From Oceaniferula marina (GTDB lineage: Bacteria; Verrucomicrobiota; Verrucomicrobiia; Verrucomicrobiales; Akkermansiaceae): a DNA stretch of 64,000 nt. This document shows positions 6,303-64,000 of this stretch, in pieces (position 1 is the stretch's first letter; every line of letters begins with the position of its first letter). The position numbers and the translations under genes were made by a program. The notes under the pieces were generated by a model. That model was not told the DNA's origin, did not search any database, and saw nothing but the letters and a program-made list of their open reading frames with translations. Location: assembly GCF_013391475.1 (NCBI RefSeq), contig NZ_JACBAZ010000004.1, forward strand, positions 434,001 through 498,000. The letters are read 5' to 3'.

Positions 6303-7472
6303 ATGAGCCTACATGCCCGATTATCACCAGAAGTCCTTCGCCGCCTGGAAAGCCAGCAGCGAAACTCAACCATTGCCAGTATCCTGATATCAATACTCAG
6401 CTTACTCCTCGTCGGCATCATCCTGCTTTGGGTTCTGCTGCCACCGATTGAAAATTTCACTCCGGAAATTGTTTCCTATCATGCAAACAGCGAAGAACCT
6501 GACCCCGTCCAGAAACGGGAAATGACGCGTAATGTGGAGCGAAAACCCTCAAGCCCATCCTCATCCATAGCTAAAGTCATCGCCGCTAAGGTGGAGGCTG
6601 TCACAGCCATCCCCATCCCGGACAACGTCAATTTCATTCCATCTCTGGATTTCGGAGATGGTGACGACTTTGGCGAAGGCTGGGGTGACGGCTTCGGCTC
6701 TGGCAGTGGTGGTGGTTTCGGATCCGCCAGTAAAATTGACGGCAGCATTTCCGGCTACCTGTATGACTTCAAACAGGACCGCCATGGCAAAGCTGTCAGT
6801 GGTTACAATATTCAAACCCGCTCGCATTTTACCGATCCAATCAACCGCCTGCACCGGTCAAGGTTCAGCCAACCATCCTTGGCTAAGTTCTACAAAGCCG
6901 ATCAAAACCTGTATCTACGCTACGTCGCCATTCCTTTCTCCAATGCCAGTGACGGACCTCGGTTTTTCCAGGCTGAAGAGGAAGTCAAACCCAGCGGATG
7001 GATTGCCCACTACAACGGCCGGGTCACCGCCCCCAAAAGCGGAACCTTCCGCTTTGTCGGAGCCGGAGACGACTATCTCTCGGTGCATGTCGACCGGAAA
7101 TTTCGACTGGTGGCCGCTTGGTCGGATATTCAGGGATCCGTGACTGTCCGAGGAGCCAACGCTTCGGACGCCCCTGTCCACCGCAGTGCCATCGGGGCCG
7201 CTCCCCTTACCTACGGCTCATGGTTCACCGTTCGCAAGGGACAGGAGCTGGATATCGGCATCACTCTGGGAGAACGTCCTGGAGGCAAGGTCGGGTTTAT
7301 GCTCATGCTTGAAGAAAAGGGAGCCCATTACCGGGAAACTGCCGAGGGCAGAAAAATCCTCCCCCCCTTCACCATGGGGCCTCTTTCACCGGAGGATCTG
7401 GACAATTTGGAGAAATTTCCAGGCTGGGAGTGGGAATTTGTCGATGTCCCGGTCTTTAAAGCCAGGGATTAG
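6303..7472 (+). CDS. Single-pass membrane protein with periplasmic PA14-like domain
   Basis: 389 residues from the ATG at 6303; an in-frame GTG at 6252 is possible but adds an unlikely leader. Layout: about 23 cytoplasmic residues, one transmembrane helix (24-46, ILISILSLLLVGIILLWVLL), a Pro/Ser/charged linker, a Gly/Asp-rich stretch (117-141), then a PA14-like fold from about 230 (WIAHYNGRVTAPKSGTFRF, then GAGDDYLSVHVD). PA14 domains usually bind carbohydrate. The N-terminal arrangement is TonB/TolA-like (short inner tail, one helix, long periplasmic linker), but no TonB C-terminal domain is seen. It may be an envelope-spanning partner of an ExbBD motor such as the one at 62.4-64 kb; that is inference. 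Confidence 0.75.
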   Translation: MSLHARLSPEVLRRLESQQRNSTIASILISILSLLLVGIILLWVLLPPIENFTPEIVSYHANSEEPDPVQKREMTRNVERKPSSPSSSIAKVIAAKVEAVTAIPIPDNVNFIPSLDFGDGDDFGEGWGDGFGSGSGGGFGSASKIDGSISGYLYDFKQDRHGKAVSGYNIQTRSHFTDPINRLHRSRFSQPSLAKFYKADQNLYLRYVAIPFSNASDGPRFFQAEEEVKPSGWIAHYNGRVTAPKSGTFRFVGAGDDYLSVHVDRKFRLVAAWSDIQGSVTVRGANASDAPVHRSAIGAAPLTYGSWFTVRKGQELDIGITLGERPGGKVGFMLMLEEKGAHYRETAEGRKILPPFTMGPLSPEDLDNLEKFPGWEWEFVDVPVFKARD

Positions 7473-59268: not shown

Positions 59269-60507
59269 ATGACTGGCAAAAAACGAACCACCCTGCCCCT
59301 TCTATGCGCCGCCACCTTATTCACCCCTTCGTTGCACGCAGGAGGACTCTACCTCTACGAGCTTAGTACTACGGAGACATCTCTAGCCGGCGCCGGATGG
59401 GCTGCCCGCGCACAGGACCCCACCACTGTCGTCACGAACCCGGCTGGCATGTCCCGCCTCGAGGGTACGCAACTCCAATTTACCCTTCAACCACTTGCGA
59501 TTGACTCCGACTTCAGCTCGGACCTCGGTGGAGGATCCAGCCTCGACTCAGTGCTCCCCGGGGGAAGTTTTTTTGCAACCCACCAGCTCAACCAGGAATG
59601 GACCATTGGTTTTTCAATGGCCGGATTTTTTGGACTCGGGCTCGATTATGATTCAGGATGGGAGGGACGCTACTACCTCGACGAAATCACCTTACAGAGT
59701 ATCGGATTCCAGCCCACCGTGTCCTACAAAGTAAACGACCAATTCTCGGTCGGAGCCGGCATCACCCTCATCTACACTGTCTTTGAACAGAAGATGTCAG
59801 TTAACAACCCGGGACCAGCGAGCGATGGCAGATTGGATCTAGACGACGAAGTTACCTCACTACAAGCCAACGTTGGATTTCTTTATGAGCCAAACGACCA
59901 CACCCGCTTCGGCCTCCAATATTTGTCAGAATCCAATATCGACCTGAAGACTCGGCCAGATGTCAAAGGCAACGGTCTGGTTTCCGATGCTCTTCGCCGA
60001 ATCGACAAATTGGATCTCGGCATGACCATGCCGCAGTCCGTGATCTTCAGTGCTTACCATCAAATCAACGACTGCTGGGCCGTCATGGGCAACGTTGGCT
60101 GGCAAGAATGGTCCAAATTTGGCAAGGTTGACATCGACGCATCAGCCGCCAACACAAGCAGATCGATCACTGCCAATCGCCGCTACAAAGATACATGGAA
60201 TGTTTCGCTTGGCGCGCAATATCAAGTCAACGACCAATGGCGGATCAACACCGGCATCGCTTACGACTCCGAGATGGTTGACGAAAAGAATGTCACCTTC
60301 GACCTGCCGACAGCTGAATCGTGGCGATACGGTATCGGAGCTACTTACACCTGCTCAGAAAATTTGGAATTCAGTGCGGGCTATGAAATCGTTTGGTATG
60401 GCGATATCGACATCAGTGCGAACCGAGGTCTGGCAGGAAATGTTTCAGGCACCTTCGAAGACCATGCACTTCATTTCCTTAGCTTTAGCGTAAACTGGAA
60501 ACTGTAA
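59269..60507 (+). CDS. OmpP1/FadL/TodX-family outer membrane transport protein
   Basis: 412 residues. Signal peptide (CAATLFTPSLHAGG), then the FadL start LYELSTTETSLAGAGWAARA and AQDPTTVVTNPAGMSRLEG, the hatch-domain NPAGM motif. Repeated amphipathic strands with alternating aromatics (for example QEWTIGFSMAGFFGLGLDYD, FSVGAGITLIYTVFEQKM) build the 14-strand barrel, and the C-terminus HFLSFSVNWKL ends with a barrel-type pattern. FadL relatives take up long-chain fatty acids or aromatic hydrocarbons; the substrate here is open. No fad genes adjoin it. Convergent with the exbBD operon's last gene (7 bases). Confidence 0.9.
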   Translation: MTGKKRTTLPLLCAATLFTPSLHAGGLYLYELSTTETSLAGAGWAARAQDPTTVVTNPAGMSRLEGTQLQFTLQPLAIDSDFSSDLGGGSSLDSVLPGGSFFATHQLNQEWTIGFSMAGFFGLGLDYDSGWEGRYYLDEITLQSIGFQPTVSYKVNDQFSVGAGITLIYTVFEQKMSVNNPGPASDGRLDLDDEVTSLQANVGFLYEPNDHTRFGLQYLSESNIDLKTRPDVKGNGLVSDALRRIDKLDLGMTMPQSVIFSAYHQINDCWAVMGNVGWQEWSKFGKVDIDASAANTSRSITANRRYKDTWNVSLGAQYQVNDQWRINTGIAYDSEMVDEKNVTFDLPTAESWRYGIGATYTCSENLEFSAGYEIVWYGDIDISANRGLAGNVSGTFEDHALHFLSFSVNWKL

Positions 60508-60514
60508 AAACAGT

Positions 60515-62431
60515 TTATGTCTTCGGGATCAACAATAGCGAGAATCGGCACGGCCCCGGACCGTTGACAAGCCTCACAAGGATTTTGTTCACCCCTCGTT
60601 TAAACTTCACCACCCTGACTTGCTCACTGATTTCGTAGGGTGACAATCCGGCATCTTCGAAAACGATCTTCCCGTTCACCCGAATGCGAGCAGCGTCATC
60701 GGAAGCAATCGCAAGGTTCATCGTGGTCTCCTGTTCGAAATACACTTCGGTGTAGGCAAAATACAGGGCGTCATTGGACAGCTGTTCGCGGGGAATCCGC
60801 ACTTCCACCGTCGGACTCTGATAGAACTGCCACCTTAAACGCCCCGATCGTTCATCTTTTCCGGCATAGCCACGTTCATCATCATAGAGGAAATGTCTTT
60901 TTCCCGTGGTGTAGATGGCGTCCAAATCAACCTTTTTTTCCAGTGGGTAGATTTTGGAAAAATCGATCTGTCGCCCACGCGTAGCCTGCGCGTCCCAGGG
61001 GCCGATGATATGCCATGTATCAATAAACAGGTACCCTTTCCGTTCGCTTTGCGAACTAAAACGACGTCCCGGAAGCACATTAGCCAGCACTTTCTTTTTG
61101 TTCACCGTGATCTGCCGGCTTCTATCCTGACTTGCCGCAAGATCCGATCGCAGGGCCAACGAGCGCCAAACGGCCTCACGGCTGCGCTGTCCCGGCCCCG
61201 AGGGGTCTCCTTGCTGGTTGGAATTTTCCGTCCCATTACCTCCGCCGCTGCCGAACGGGCCATCCCCAAATTTGGCGTCCCCACTTTTATCACCGCCCTG
61301 CCCTTCACCACCATCGGCTTGCTCACCCTCACCTTGCCCAGGCATTTCACCCCCAGACTCCATCAAAGCTCGGGCCGCACTCATCTGAGCCTCCGTCAAT
61401 GCCTCGGTAAATTGATCCAGCTGATCCACATTCTCGGGCATTTCTTGCTGCAGCTCCTCCTGCATATCATCCTTGGCGTAGGGTTCGTGAGCCAATTTAT
61501 CCAAAGCCACAGGAAAGGGAATCTCGGCTGCGTCAGCCAGCTCACCAGCGGCCACATCCCCCATCAGGTTCTTGTAGTGCTCTGCCATCAGCTGCGATAA
61601 CTGATGAAGCTCTGCCATGGTCATCGGACGAATCGTCCGGTCAAACTGAGCGCGCTGCGAGGCCGACAACGGATGGTCCTCCGGTTGGGCAAAGCCACGC
61701 ACGGCCATATCCCGATCCTGATTCCGGATCGCATCCACATTGGATTGGATACTCAAGCCATAACGAAGCGCCTGCTGCCCCAACAGCTCAGTATAATCTG
61801 ACTCAGCCAACACTCTGGTCAGCCGATCCACCGCCGCAGCAAGCGGCTTGAACGCATCTTCCGTCGCATGGCTCTGATACCGGCGAGCGAATTGCCAAAC
61901 GATCTGGACTTCCCGCGCAACAGGCTCCAATTGCTTTAATTTCTGATGAAGAACCGATGTCTTTTCCCCATACGCCTGCATCCTTGATTTACGGATCGCG
62001 CCATACACCTTATCCGAGTGCTCGACCAGTAAAGGAAGCAGGGAGTCAAACAATGCCGGATCTTTTCTAAACCTCGCGGTAACCGCAGCCTCTTCTTTTT
62101 CCGCAAGAACAATCCGTTGCTCCAAACGTCGAAGCATCTCCATCATTTGCTTCCGTGCGCGTTCTTCTCGCAACTTGGCTAGCCGCTCAACATCTAACTT
62201 AGACAATCGACGCCTCGGTTTCTGGCTCTGTTTTTTTTGCCTCTGCTTTTTTGCCTCTGCTCGTTCCTGCTCGCTCGGCATCGACAACTGAGCACTGAAC
62301 AAATCCGGCTTCAGCAATGCGGTCACGCCAACAGCAAGTAAAACGATGCAGGTCACCACCCGGGCGACCCGGCGCCCGCGCTGCATCCGCCGTTCGATCG
62401 GGTCGAGTTCTTTACTGGTTGTAAGCTTCAT
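60515..62431 (-). CDS. Large envelope protein linked to ExbBD, with C-terminal PA14-like domain
   Basis: 638 residues from the ATG at 62431 (MKLTTSKELDPIERR); the frame begins at 62446. A basic N-terminus, a transmembrane helix at about 24-40, a Lys/Arg/Glu-rich coiled coil (about 55-125), a helical middle, a Gly/Asp/Asn-rich linker (about 360-414), and a C-terminal domain from about 464 (YLFIDTWHIIGPWDAQATRG, then LAIASDDAARIRVNGKIVFE and RGVNKILVRLVNGPG) that looks like a PA14 or sugar-binding jelly roll. Its start overlaps the upstream exbD by 20 bases, so it is translationally coupled to the motor genes. It may connect the ExbBD motor to the outer envelope. Function unknown. Confidence 0.65.
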   Translation of the reverse strand: MKLTTSKELDPIERRMQRGRRVARVVTCIVLLAVGVTALLKPDLFSAQLSMPSEQERAEAKKQRQKKQSQKPRRRLSKLDVERLAKLREERARKQMMEMLRRLEQRIVLAEKEEAAVTARFRKDPALFDSLLPLLVEHSDKVYGAIRKSRMQAYGEKTSVLHQKLKQLEPVAREVQIVWQFARRYQSHATEDAFKPLAAAVDRLTRVLAESDYTELLGQQALRYGLSIQSNVDAIRNQDRDMAVRGFAQPEDHPLSASQRAQFDRTIRPMTMAELHQLSQLMAEHYKNLMGDVAAGELADAAEIPFPVALDKLAHEPYAKDDMQEELQQEMPENVDQLDQFTEALTEAQMSAARALMESGGEMPGQGEGEQADGGEGQGGDKSGDAKFGDGPFGSGGGNGTENSNQQGDPSGPGQRSREAVWRSLALRSDLAASQDRSRQITVNKKKVLANVLPGRRFSSQSERKGYLFIDTWHIIGPWDAQATRGRQIDFSKIYPLEKKVDLDAIYTTGKRHFLYDDERGYAGKDERSGRLRWQFYQSPTVEVRIPREQLSNDALYFAYTEVYFEQETTMNLAIASDDAARIRVNGKIVFEDAGLSPYEISEQVRVVKFKRGVNKILVRLVNGPGPCRFSLLLIPKT

Positions 62432-62834
62432 CGTATGTGCGCACACCCACGTTATTGATTTGATAGAAATTACAAAGATCGAGCACTTCGGCTACGTGAA
62501 TGAACTTTGTCCGTTTGTCGCAATCGAGACGGATCCCCTGATCCTTATTCACCATCGCGATCTGCTCCAGGCTCTTTCGCAGTTGCATCCGTGAACTCAT
62601 CACACCGTCAAAATAAAACCGGCCTTTGCGGTCGATGCCGATGACGGTGTCATCGTTGGGTTCGATCTCGATCGCCGCATTGGATACCGGCAATGAGATA
62701 TCGATGTCTGCATTCTTTTTTTTCAGCATCGTGGTCACCAAAAAAAAGATCAGCAGCAAAAACACACAGTCGATCAATGGCGACATCGACACCTCGACGT
62801 TATCTTCATCCCGATGCTTGTTCTTAATTTTCAT
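62412..62834 (-). CDS. exbD: ExbD/TolR-family biopolymer transport protein (second copy)
   Basis: 140 residues. The single helix VSMSPLIDCVFLLLIFFLVT carries the conserved Asp (SPLID) that takes part in proton translocation, and is preceded by a charged cytoplasmic tail (KIKNKHRDEDNVE). The periplasmic part (DIDISLPVSNAAIEIEPNDD, then VIGIDRKGRFYFDGVMSSRM) matches ExbD. It overlaps the upstream exbD by 11 bases and the downstream envelope gene by 20, so the four genes are tightly packed. The pairing of two different ExbD subunits with one ExbB is common in Verrucomicrobia and Planctomycetes. Confidence 0.92.
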   Translation of the reverse strand: MKIKNKHRDEDNVEVSMSPLIDCVFLLLIFFLVTTMLKKKNADIDISLPVSNAAIEIEPNDDTVIGIDRKGRFYFDGVMSSRMQLRKSLEQIAMVNKDQGIRLDCDKRTKFIHVAEVLDLCNFYQINNVGVRTYDEAYNQ

Positions 62835-63306
62835 CTTTCTCCTTTCGGTAAATCGATTGAAAATTATCGGAGTCCGAATAGGTCTTCACGTTGGAAAACC
62901 CTTGGATCGTACAAACGTCAAAGACCCGCAAGACATCCTGAAACTCCACATCTTTCTGCACCTGGATTACCAAGGGACGATTCTTTTTTCCTTCCGCCAC
63001 CAAGATTTTCAGATAAGCTGGTAAATCCGGAACATCCACATAAGTGATCCTGCCAAAGGCATCACGTTGTTTCAAAGGACGTTTGATGGTCCCCTGCTTG
63101 GTCAGGCCGATGTACATGGTATCGGACTTCACCGTATCCGCCACGCTCAGCACAGCATCCGGCTGGCGGATCGGGATACGCCGCTCGGTCTTCTTCAACA
63201 TCGTGGTCACCAGAAAAAAGATCAGCAGCAAAAATACACAGTCGATCAATGGGGACATTGAGACGTCCACATCGTCATCGAGTTCTTTGGACCGTTTAAT
63301 CTGCAC
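62824..63306 (-). CDS. exbD: ExbD/TolR-family biopolymer transport protein (first copy)
   Basis: 160 residues from a GTG at 63306, chosen because AGGA lies 7 bases upstream and because the tail length then matches the sister ExbD; the ATG at 63372 would overlap exbB by 25 bases and add an atypical acidic stretch. The helix VSMSPLIDCVFLLLIFFLVT is identical to the other copy. The periplasmic domain differs (PIRQPDAVLSVADTVKSDTM), suggesting distinct partners or an ExbD heterodimer. Located between exbB and the second exbD. Confidence 0.88.
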   Translation of the reverse strand: MQIKRSKELDDDVDVSMSPLIDCVFLLLIFFLVTTMLKKTERRIPIRQPDAVLSVADTVKSDTMYIGLTKQGTIKRPLKQRDAFGRITYVDVPDLPAYLKILVAEGKKNRPLVIQVQKDVEFQDVLRVFDVCTIQGFSNVKTYSDSDNFQSIYRKEKDEN

Positions 63307-63347
63307 AACGCAATCCTGGTTCAGCTCATCATCTTCCCAAGTGCAAG

Positions 63348-63986
63348 CTAACGCACTTTCTTCCCAAACCATGCACGCTGGACCCGATCCAAATCAGCCT
63401 CCAACTTGTCAGACAGACTCCCCAAACGCACTTTGAAATAATGAAACGCCGCCAAGGAAGGAATCGCGATAATCAAACCCACTGCCGTGGTGATCAGGGC
63501 CTTGCCAATCGAGTCACCCAATACCAGGGCAGCCTCACTGCTGTCGGTGAGTTTGGAAAACTTGGCAAAAGCTTCAATCATTCCGATCATGGTCCCGAGT
63601 AGACCTAACAATGGAGCCAAGGTTGCAACCACCCCGAGGCTGTAAACTCTTCGGCGGTGGCTTTCGATATCGCGACCGGCAAGATCGCCGGCCATCTCCA
63701 CTATTTCCGATGACTCATATTCGTTATGTTCCGCCATGTGATTCACCACCTTGGTGAAAGATGATGGTTTTTCCTGATAGAGTGTTTTAGCGGCATCCTC
63801 CCCCTCGATGGGGTCAACCGCCATCGCCACATTGACCACCTCGGGAGAAGCAAGCACATTGGATGAACGCATATTGATCAAACGCTCAATGACAAAAAGC
63901 ACTGCAGCCAGAGCCAACACCAGCAAAGCAATCCCGGTCCCGCCACCCTTTTGTAACTCAGCCATCCAGTCGATGGATGCCTGCAT
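63348..63986 (-). CDS. exbB: MotA/TolQ/ExbB proton channel family protein
   Basis: 212 residues. Helix 1 is IALLVLALAAVLFVIERL; the pair near the C-terminal half is YSLGVVATLAPLLGLLGTMI and GMIEAF, then LGDSIGKALITTAVGLIIAI with the Thr-rich proton path. It forms the pentameric channel around two ExbD subunits that uses the proton gradient. The frame remains open beyond the ATG at 63986 to the window edge (five more codons), so a longer start cannot be excluded. First gene of the leftward exbB-exbD-exbD-envelope-protein operon visible here. Confidence 0.9.
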   Translation of the reverse strand: MQASIDWMAELQKGGGTGIALLVLALAAVLFVIERLINMRSSNVLASPEVVNVAMAVDPIEGEDAAKTLYQEKPSSFTKVVNHMAEHNEYESSEIVEMAGDLAGRDIESHRRRVYSLGVVATLAPLLGLLGTMIGMIEAFAKFSKLTDSSEAALVLGDSIGKALITTAVGLIIAIPSLAAFHYFKVRLGSLSDKLEADLDRVQRAWFGKKVR

Positions 63987-64000
63987 CTGATCAGAGGCAA

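Follow-up and report, generated by a model that had tools for sequence, protein, structure and literature searches.

The proton motors of the ExbB/ExbD and TolQ/TolR type are known to work with few kinds of arm, namely TonB, TolA and, as recently proposed, arms ending in a vWA domain. The membrane helices of TonB and TolA have in common the motif Ser-3X-His-6X-Leu-3X-Ser, whose Ser and His touch ExbB or TolQ, according to the relevant passages of PMC12905483. Arms ending in vWA have been described in the Planctomycetota-Verrucomicrobiota-Chlamydiota (PVC) group by Williams-Jones et al. (2025; PMC12204202), who found them encoded together with a single tolQ-like gene and a pair of tolR-like genes and who expect that more systems driven by the proton-motive force are still to be discovered. 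In this study, we report a four-gene operon, exbB-exbD1-exbD2-X, located at the right edge of a 64,000-nucleotide stretch of the Oceaniferula marina genome (G000:C4:434001-498000), hereafter the window. Its last gene encodes a 638-residue protein, here called X, which is likely to transduce force from the motor and whose end domain is not of the TonB type but resembles PA14 domains and the N-terminal jelly rolls of family 2 glycoside hydrolases (GH2).

The four genes lie on the minus strand as a single operon of overlapping genes. They are exbB (63348-64000 within the window and on to 64106 in the genome), encoding a MotA/TolQ/ExbB proton channel (PF01618, E = 3.2e-22); exbD1 (62824-63372), encoding the first ExbD, of a longer type (PF02472, E = 2.8e-18); exbD2 (62412-62834), encoding the second ExbD, of a shorter type and adjoining X (PF02472, E = 1.8e-26); and the open reading frame (ORF) of X (60515-62431), which has an alternative GTG start at 62446. 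The ORFs, their order and their overlaps are as the initial annotation gave them, with the correction that exbB is cut by the window edge; its true start is at window position 64106 and the complete product has 252 amino acids (ORF L009:9348-10106). The overlap between X and exbD2 is 20 bases, counted from the ATG of X. That between exbD1 and exbB is 25 bases and uncertain, as is the start codon of exbD1, because about 30 residues at its N terminus lie ahead of the region where ExbD proteins usually start, as judged by eye. The Pfam scores (79.1 bits for MotA_ExbB, 93.2 and 66.7 bits for ExbD) were all above the curated cut-offs. Both window ExbDs carry the channel Asp within an intramembrane S-P-L-I-D, and ExbB has the Thr-bearing motifs L-L-G-T-M-I-G and L-I-T-T-A-V-G in its second and third transmembrane segments (TM2 and TM3). 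By their domains and channel residues, the window motor genes can thus be assigned to the ExbB/ExbD (TolQ/TolR) type, as far as sequence tells.

The X module agrees with the vWA transducers, as presented in passages of PMC12204202, in combining a single tolQ-like gene with two different tolR-like ones, in the helix-linker-globular-domain plan of the arm and in its presence in the PVC group; an SHLS motif is found in many of their arms. It differs at the tip, which is a vWA domain in those arms and a predicted PA14/GH2-N-like jelly roll in X. PA14 is absent from the main text of that paper. Likewise, no description of a PA14-like arm linked to ExbBD was found in the open PubMed Central (PMC) literature, subscription papers and preprints being outside its scope, and in the retrieved parts of that literature ExbD together with 'PA14 domain' led only to work on family 3 glycoside hydrolases (GH3). 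Within these searches, and only for them, the module is undescribed. If a further widespread arm had an ExbB branch of its own and came with two dissimilar ExbDs, the motor could be seen as a platform of general use.

X begins with a transmembrane helix at residues 22-40 (62312-62368, minus strand, from hydropathy), which is followed by a helical region at residues 41-358 (61358-62311), taken as periplasmic, by a Gly-rich linker at residues 362-439 (61115-61348) and by an end domain at residues 440-638 (60518-61114). The AlphaFold2 model of the full protein (m05349a1889b5, from a 34-row alignment) had a mean predicted local distance difference test score (pLDDT) of 71.9 and a predicted template modelling score (pTM) of 0.41. 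It placed a helix at 11-40 and long helices up to residue 358 (block pLDDT about 45-94), predicted the linker to be disordered (pLDDT below 50) and gave a mainly beta structure from 440 to 638. No Pfam family matched X above its cut-off. No TonB C-terminal domain had been visible to the initial annotation from the sequence alone, and this was borne out by Pfam, as TonB_C (PF03544) did not match X even at E ≤ 1. No TonB or TolA structure was among the best 50 matches listed for each fold search of X or its end domain, which describes those lists and does not amount to an exclusion.

Modelled alone (m7b756fe73a01, 46 rows), the end domain is a beta jelly roll, nearly all beta, with a pLDDT of 85.7 and a pTM of 0.84. 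GH3 beta-glucosidases carry a PA14 insert, and they headed the Foldseek matches, although the output gives no indication of which part aligned; family 31 glycoside hydrolases, GH2 beta-glucuronidases and PA14 lectin domains were also listed, and the carbohydrate-binding module CBM35 appeared for the full-length model only. The Foldseek scores were moderate (E about 1e-5 to 1e-3), some with a large root-mean-square deviation (rmsd); for the PA14 lectin domain 6x8a of Marinomonas MpAFP the template modelling (TM) score was 0.41 by query and 0.44 by target. In VIA-align the GH2 N-terminal jelly rolls came first (2vzs, Z 12.3, rmsd 2.9, 133 residues aligned), with Z between 11.0 and 12.3 in all the best 50 rows listed, so that the end domain ranks as close to these as to PA14, or closer. 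Pfam PA14 (PF07691, curated cut-off 24 bits) had no match in the window copy. Among 46 end-domain relatives it matched 13 at E ≤ 0.1 (best 5e-4; the two scores viewed were 15.6 and 13.1 bits), and it was the only Pfam family to match more than a few of them. The PA14-like C-terminal domain of the initial annotation therefore stands as a moderate likeness of fold, for which 'PA14-like' is a fair label, and does not stand as strict membership of the Pfam family. An adjacent pair of Asp residues, 578-579 (60695-60700), is invariant in both alignments; such a pair forms the calcium site of PA14 lectins. No vWA family appeared in the Pfam results, and the fold lists show jelly rolls, absence from such lists being no exclusion. 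A profile search of the sequences of solved structures yielded 10 matches, all of them to stretches that are short and seem unrelated.

The X module is present twice in this genome, in diverged form. A search with X revealed a homologue of 629 residues at C5:98489-100324 (ORF L014:7463-9352), 29-30% identical, directly 3' of its own exbB, exbD and exbD and hence in the gene order of the window. A search of 58 genomes with X alone gave matches at E ≤ 1e-5 in two, the window's own and one of the same order, and none in 13 genomes of the same genus and 22 of the same family, some of them incomplete. A two-row profile made from X and this paralogue was then compared with 387 genomes across the phylum, with at most three candidates scored in each, and matched 44 of them at that threshold. 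Of the 61 matches listed, 43 were strong (E < 1e-19) and the remaining 18 weak, and the loci of all were taken, together with that of the same-order genome. Both exbB and exbD adjoin X in 39 of the 42 strong-hit loci; L070 has exbD alone with X and L076 has no motor gene, both at contig edges, and L088 is considered below. Around the weak rows, which are other proteins with a similar end domain, exbB or exbD was found in none of the 18 loci, a few of which are shortened by contig ends. A second named collection of 51 loci, partly overlapping the first, had both genes in 43, exbD only in four (at contig edges) and neither in four, of which L113 and L141 are at contig edges and L143 and L145 are lone end-domain fragments. 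The initial annotation had named a lack of conserved gene order in related genomes as grounds for refutation, and these loci show the order to be kept. ExbB is a common protein (83 matches in eight genomes of 3.5-5.9 Mb) and by our estimate a few loci in a hundred would therefore have it near X by chance.

By record title or tree label, the hosts of the module include Verrucomicrobiota, Lentisphaerota, Kiritimatiellota, Planctomycetota and Bacteroidota, with one Nitrospirota metagenome-assembled genome (MAG). Among the Bacteroidota are Bacteroides faecis, B. finegoldii, B. acidifaciens, Paraprevotella and Sphingobacterium. Since it occurs in cultured species such as B. finegoldii, B. faecis, Paraprevotella clara and Cerasicoccus, its function is open to experiment.

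Joint inheritance was studied in 67 distinct modules having all three gene types. The ExbB motif patterns fit 64 of them in TM2 and 63 in TM3, and the channel Asp was found by pattern in 106 of 116 ExbDs and by eye in the sequences of the remaining 10. The 67 X-linked ExbBs fell on one side of a branch and 36 other ExbBs on the other, with a support of 100 in the Shimodaira-Hasegawa-like approximate likelihood-ratio test (SH-aLRT). These others were 30 from eight genomes, the best-scoring of about 68 and without X in their loci (about 1.5 kb on each side), plus six (or five) of the window genome's seven. The split was found again (SH-aLRT 100) when all rows were trimmed equally and compared with 35 others, and a tree of the motif-cut core, which dropped 21 of 102 rows (18 of them X-linked), left it unchanged with a support of 99. 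Distances between ExbBs and between X end domains were correlated over the 67 modules (r = 0.85, against a maximum of 0.15 in 2000 permutations). In the 49 modules with two ExbDs, the first and second ExbDs, among which exbD1 and exbD2 of the window were counted respectively, required only 3 and 2 label changes, compared with about 38 when shuffled, in an alignment of few columns. The first and second ExbDs thus appear to be two old and nearly clean lineages, and for this reason the pair probably forms a heterodimer. The comparisons support a dedicated ExbB/ExbD/ExbD motor that is tied genetically to X across several phyla, the four components seemingly being inherited together as one unit. 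Of the coupling initially proposed, the part concerning X is in agreement with this genetic tie; a second protein that had been included in it, at 6303-7472, did not prove to be linked to a motor, as described below.

A grouping across phyla was observed in the ExbB tree, where the Bacteroidota modules (L105, L107, L111, L117, L118, L122, L132, L134, L135 and L138) fall with those of Lentisphaeria (L066, L067, L123 and L128, from largely rumen records) with 100/100 support. The ExbBs of both are about 440-530 amino acids long, with an N-terminal extension, and Pfam gave no identification for the two tested. Given this grouping and the long ExbBs on both sides, transfer of the module between phyla is likely.

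The plan of X, with one helix, a spacer and a C-terminal domain, is that of the Ton system, with which the module also shares the ExbB and ExbD families. It differs from it in having two different ExbDs, a jelly-roll tip in which no TonB_C was found and, in the window, a helix without the His: motif scans detected no S-x3-H there. In the 18 modules with a single ExbD, on the other hand, S-x3-H is present in the helix of all 12 unsplit X proteins, nine of which have the whole S-x3-H-x6-L-x3-S/T, and in all five helix partners of a split form, which makes 17 of 17 scored modules (L094 was left unscored, its start being unclear). As a control, the other membrane ORFs near the loci were scanned, and 10 of 334 had S-x3-H; nine belonged to the X family (split partners, tandem or edge copies, and L088) and one was unrelated. 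Several helices of two-ExbD modules have Gln at the place of the His, and window X has neither. Because the single-ExbD relatives keep S-x3-H, it can be argued that the docking mode of TonB and TolA was either ancestral to X or reached by convergence, and that the window branch altered it. For the same reason the most fitting place for X is in an additional class of motor-driven force transducers, alongside TonB/TolA and the vWA type put forward in 2025. In the initial annotation, motors pulling on PA14 proteins in place of TonB were said to make an unusual system; the motif in distant relatives places X near the mechanical class of TonB and TolA rather than wholly apart from it.

In the working model, the products of the four genes would form an envelope-spanning machine of the Ton/Tol class that transmits force through an unusual arm. 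An ExbB pentamer would surround an ExbD1-ExbD2 heterodimer, and the flow of protons would turn or rock this motor. The helix of X would sit against the ExbB ring, as those of TonB and TolA do, with the helical stretch spanning the periplasm, and the end domain would grip a partner at the peptidoglycan or the outer membrane, which the movement of the motor would pull. The most likely partner, though one that we propose only tentatively from the modelled fold, may be a glycan or a glycan-handling outer-membrane protein, this choice being favoured because the fold of the end domain is common to sugar-binding modules. A more detailed version must be regarded as speculative, in which an obligate ExbD1-ExbD2 pair, docked without the His hub, would pull a glycan or its carrier inwards by the lectin-like tip and so power the import of large polysaccharides to the periplasm in Verrucomicrobiota, Planctomycetota, Lentisphaerota and some gut Bacteroidota. 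If true, the module would be a concrete candidate for moving large glycans across the outer membrane in polysaccharide-eating bacteria. To our knowledge, the motor of selfish glycan uptake in Verrucomicrobiota is not settled. Such uptake is reported in passages of PMC13174399, and for alginate-oligomer transport in this phylum passages of PMC13274419 list TolQ/ExbB and TolR/ExbD genes, one pair of which is without TonB. The mucin-uptake loci of Akkermansia, which may also contain ExbBD-type genes, were considered as a parallel and set aside, ExbB/ExbD not being mentioned in published passages on them.

Several observations weigh against X as a force transducer. The homologue at L088, from a genome of the same family, lies without motor genes around it. 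The motor-contact His is lacking in window X and in 41 of the 46 scored helices of two-ExbD modules, the other five having S-x3-H. The likeness of the end-domain fold is moderate, with all Foldseek TM-scores below 0.5. The ExbB tree holds just 30 of some 68 non-X ExbBs, with short flanks, and the correlation between ExbB and X distances is owed in part to shared host history. Finally, a linked functional switch between a single ExbD and the His found no support beyond descent: the two traits, ExbD number and His, change only 2 and 3 times in the tree, and the association is a clade effect of one or two independent pairs, without significance.

The lack of the contact His in the window-type helix would suit a periplasmic sensor or regulator, whose end domain binds a sugar and thereby opens the channel gate with no transduction of force, and the Foldseek matches do include sensor domains, among them those of RetS and of anti-sigma factors. 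We consider this improbable, as the single-ExbD relatives have kept a transducer-type helix motif and the long helical stretch and flexible linker fit a spanning arm. Scarcely different in probability, and also improbable, is a Tol-like tether by which the module replaces TolQRA and holds the outer membrane or wall in register. The TolA of Escherichia coli likewise has a helix plus a long helical stretch; the helical domain II of TolA is named in a passage of PMC12204202. The window ExbB and ExbDs are nearest to the TolQ and TolR models of NCBIfam, yet far under their cut-offs, and in this 97% complete genome TolB_N (PF04052) had no match at E ≤ 0.1, in a search that was positive in three of 14 control genomes, E. 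coli included, whereas three OmpA-domain matches were found. The patchy distribution noted above for the same genus and family counts against it, since a tether that is essential should be widely retained. The end domain also differs from that of Tol-Pal, and the module is multi-copy: this genome has a diverged pair, and other genomes reach as many as three strong matches, at most three candidates having been scored in each.

The motor might, finally, power gliding or surface secretion in the manner of AglRQS, with X as the moving, adhesin-linked part. Gliding of Myxococcus is indeed driven by ExbB/ExbD-type motors, but gliding machines require more parts, and here no neighbour family besides exbB, exbD and X recurs in more than five of 42 or six of 45 loci, antisense ORFs being ignored. 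Although AglRS are counted among these motors in a passage of PMC12505986, we regard this explanation as very unlikely. Our preferred reading of X remains that of a force transducer coupled to the motor, with a tip other than TonB's.

The module occurs in other forms. In the split form (L078, L082, L084, L089 and L091), a helix-plus-coil protein of 343-443 amino acids with S-x3-H precedes an end-domain protein that has a coil, lacks a clear X-type helix and in some cases has a signal-like start, as seen by eye. This helix partner was the only gene to stand out as a conserved addition to the operon, other neighbours varying. The order is exbD-X-exbB-exbD in L068, L069 and L071-L075 (family f31, genus g111), where X has about 940-960 residues, and in L086 and L087 a tandem pair of X genes follows one exbB and one exbD. 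In the two closest relatives of window X (L025:9922-11838 in G040, and L096:6001-7932 in an uncultured Rubritalea MAG) the linker is broken by in-frame TGA, the only interrupting codon, present once and four times respectively; the end domain beyond is still well conserved. TGA is an ordinary stop in L025, as other ORFs there end in it. Possible explanations are an error in the assembly, decay and the making of two separate products; copies without interruption are present in other species.

With respect to other motors in the same genome, there are nine ExbB matches. The single protein with TonB_C above the cut-off, at C1:1112570, is encoded next to a receptor gene with a Plug domain, an exbD and two further exbB genes. 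At L013:6194-8094 (G000:C8) there is another exbB-exbD-exbD set, after which comes a protein of 1031 residues that looks repetitive by eye and is neither X nor TonB. Some loci have glycan-related neighbours, such as an NPCBM protein next to the second X module and GH88 and DUF2264 proteins next to that of B. finegoldii; having no background count, they were not used as evidence. In the window, a convergent gene for a FadL-type porin (59269-60507, by Pfam) lies downstream of X, and beyond exbB there is a divergent ORF, presumably for an SppA-type peptidase.

The separate PA14-like protein at 6303-7472 reported in the initial annotation does exist, with a Pfam PA14 match (E = 0.03) under the cut-off. 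Its proposed coupling to the motor found no support, as its five matches in the genome, itself included, are all more than 20 kb from the nine ExbB matches (the nearest at 22 kb), and for want of linkage to a motor gene it was dropped as a part of the X system. At E ≤ 1e-5 the protein was matched in 39 of 58 genomes, its own included, and three of four homologues had Pfam PA14 matches (E 0.00089 to 0.081) under the cut-off. Among the matches listed, many extend over no more than about the first 142 residues (helix and linker), in frames of other lengths; these one-helix relatives with a shared N-terminal part look like a modular family of envelope or surface proteins of their own.

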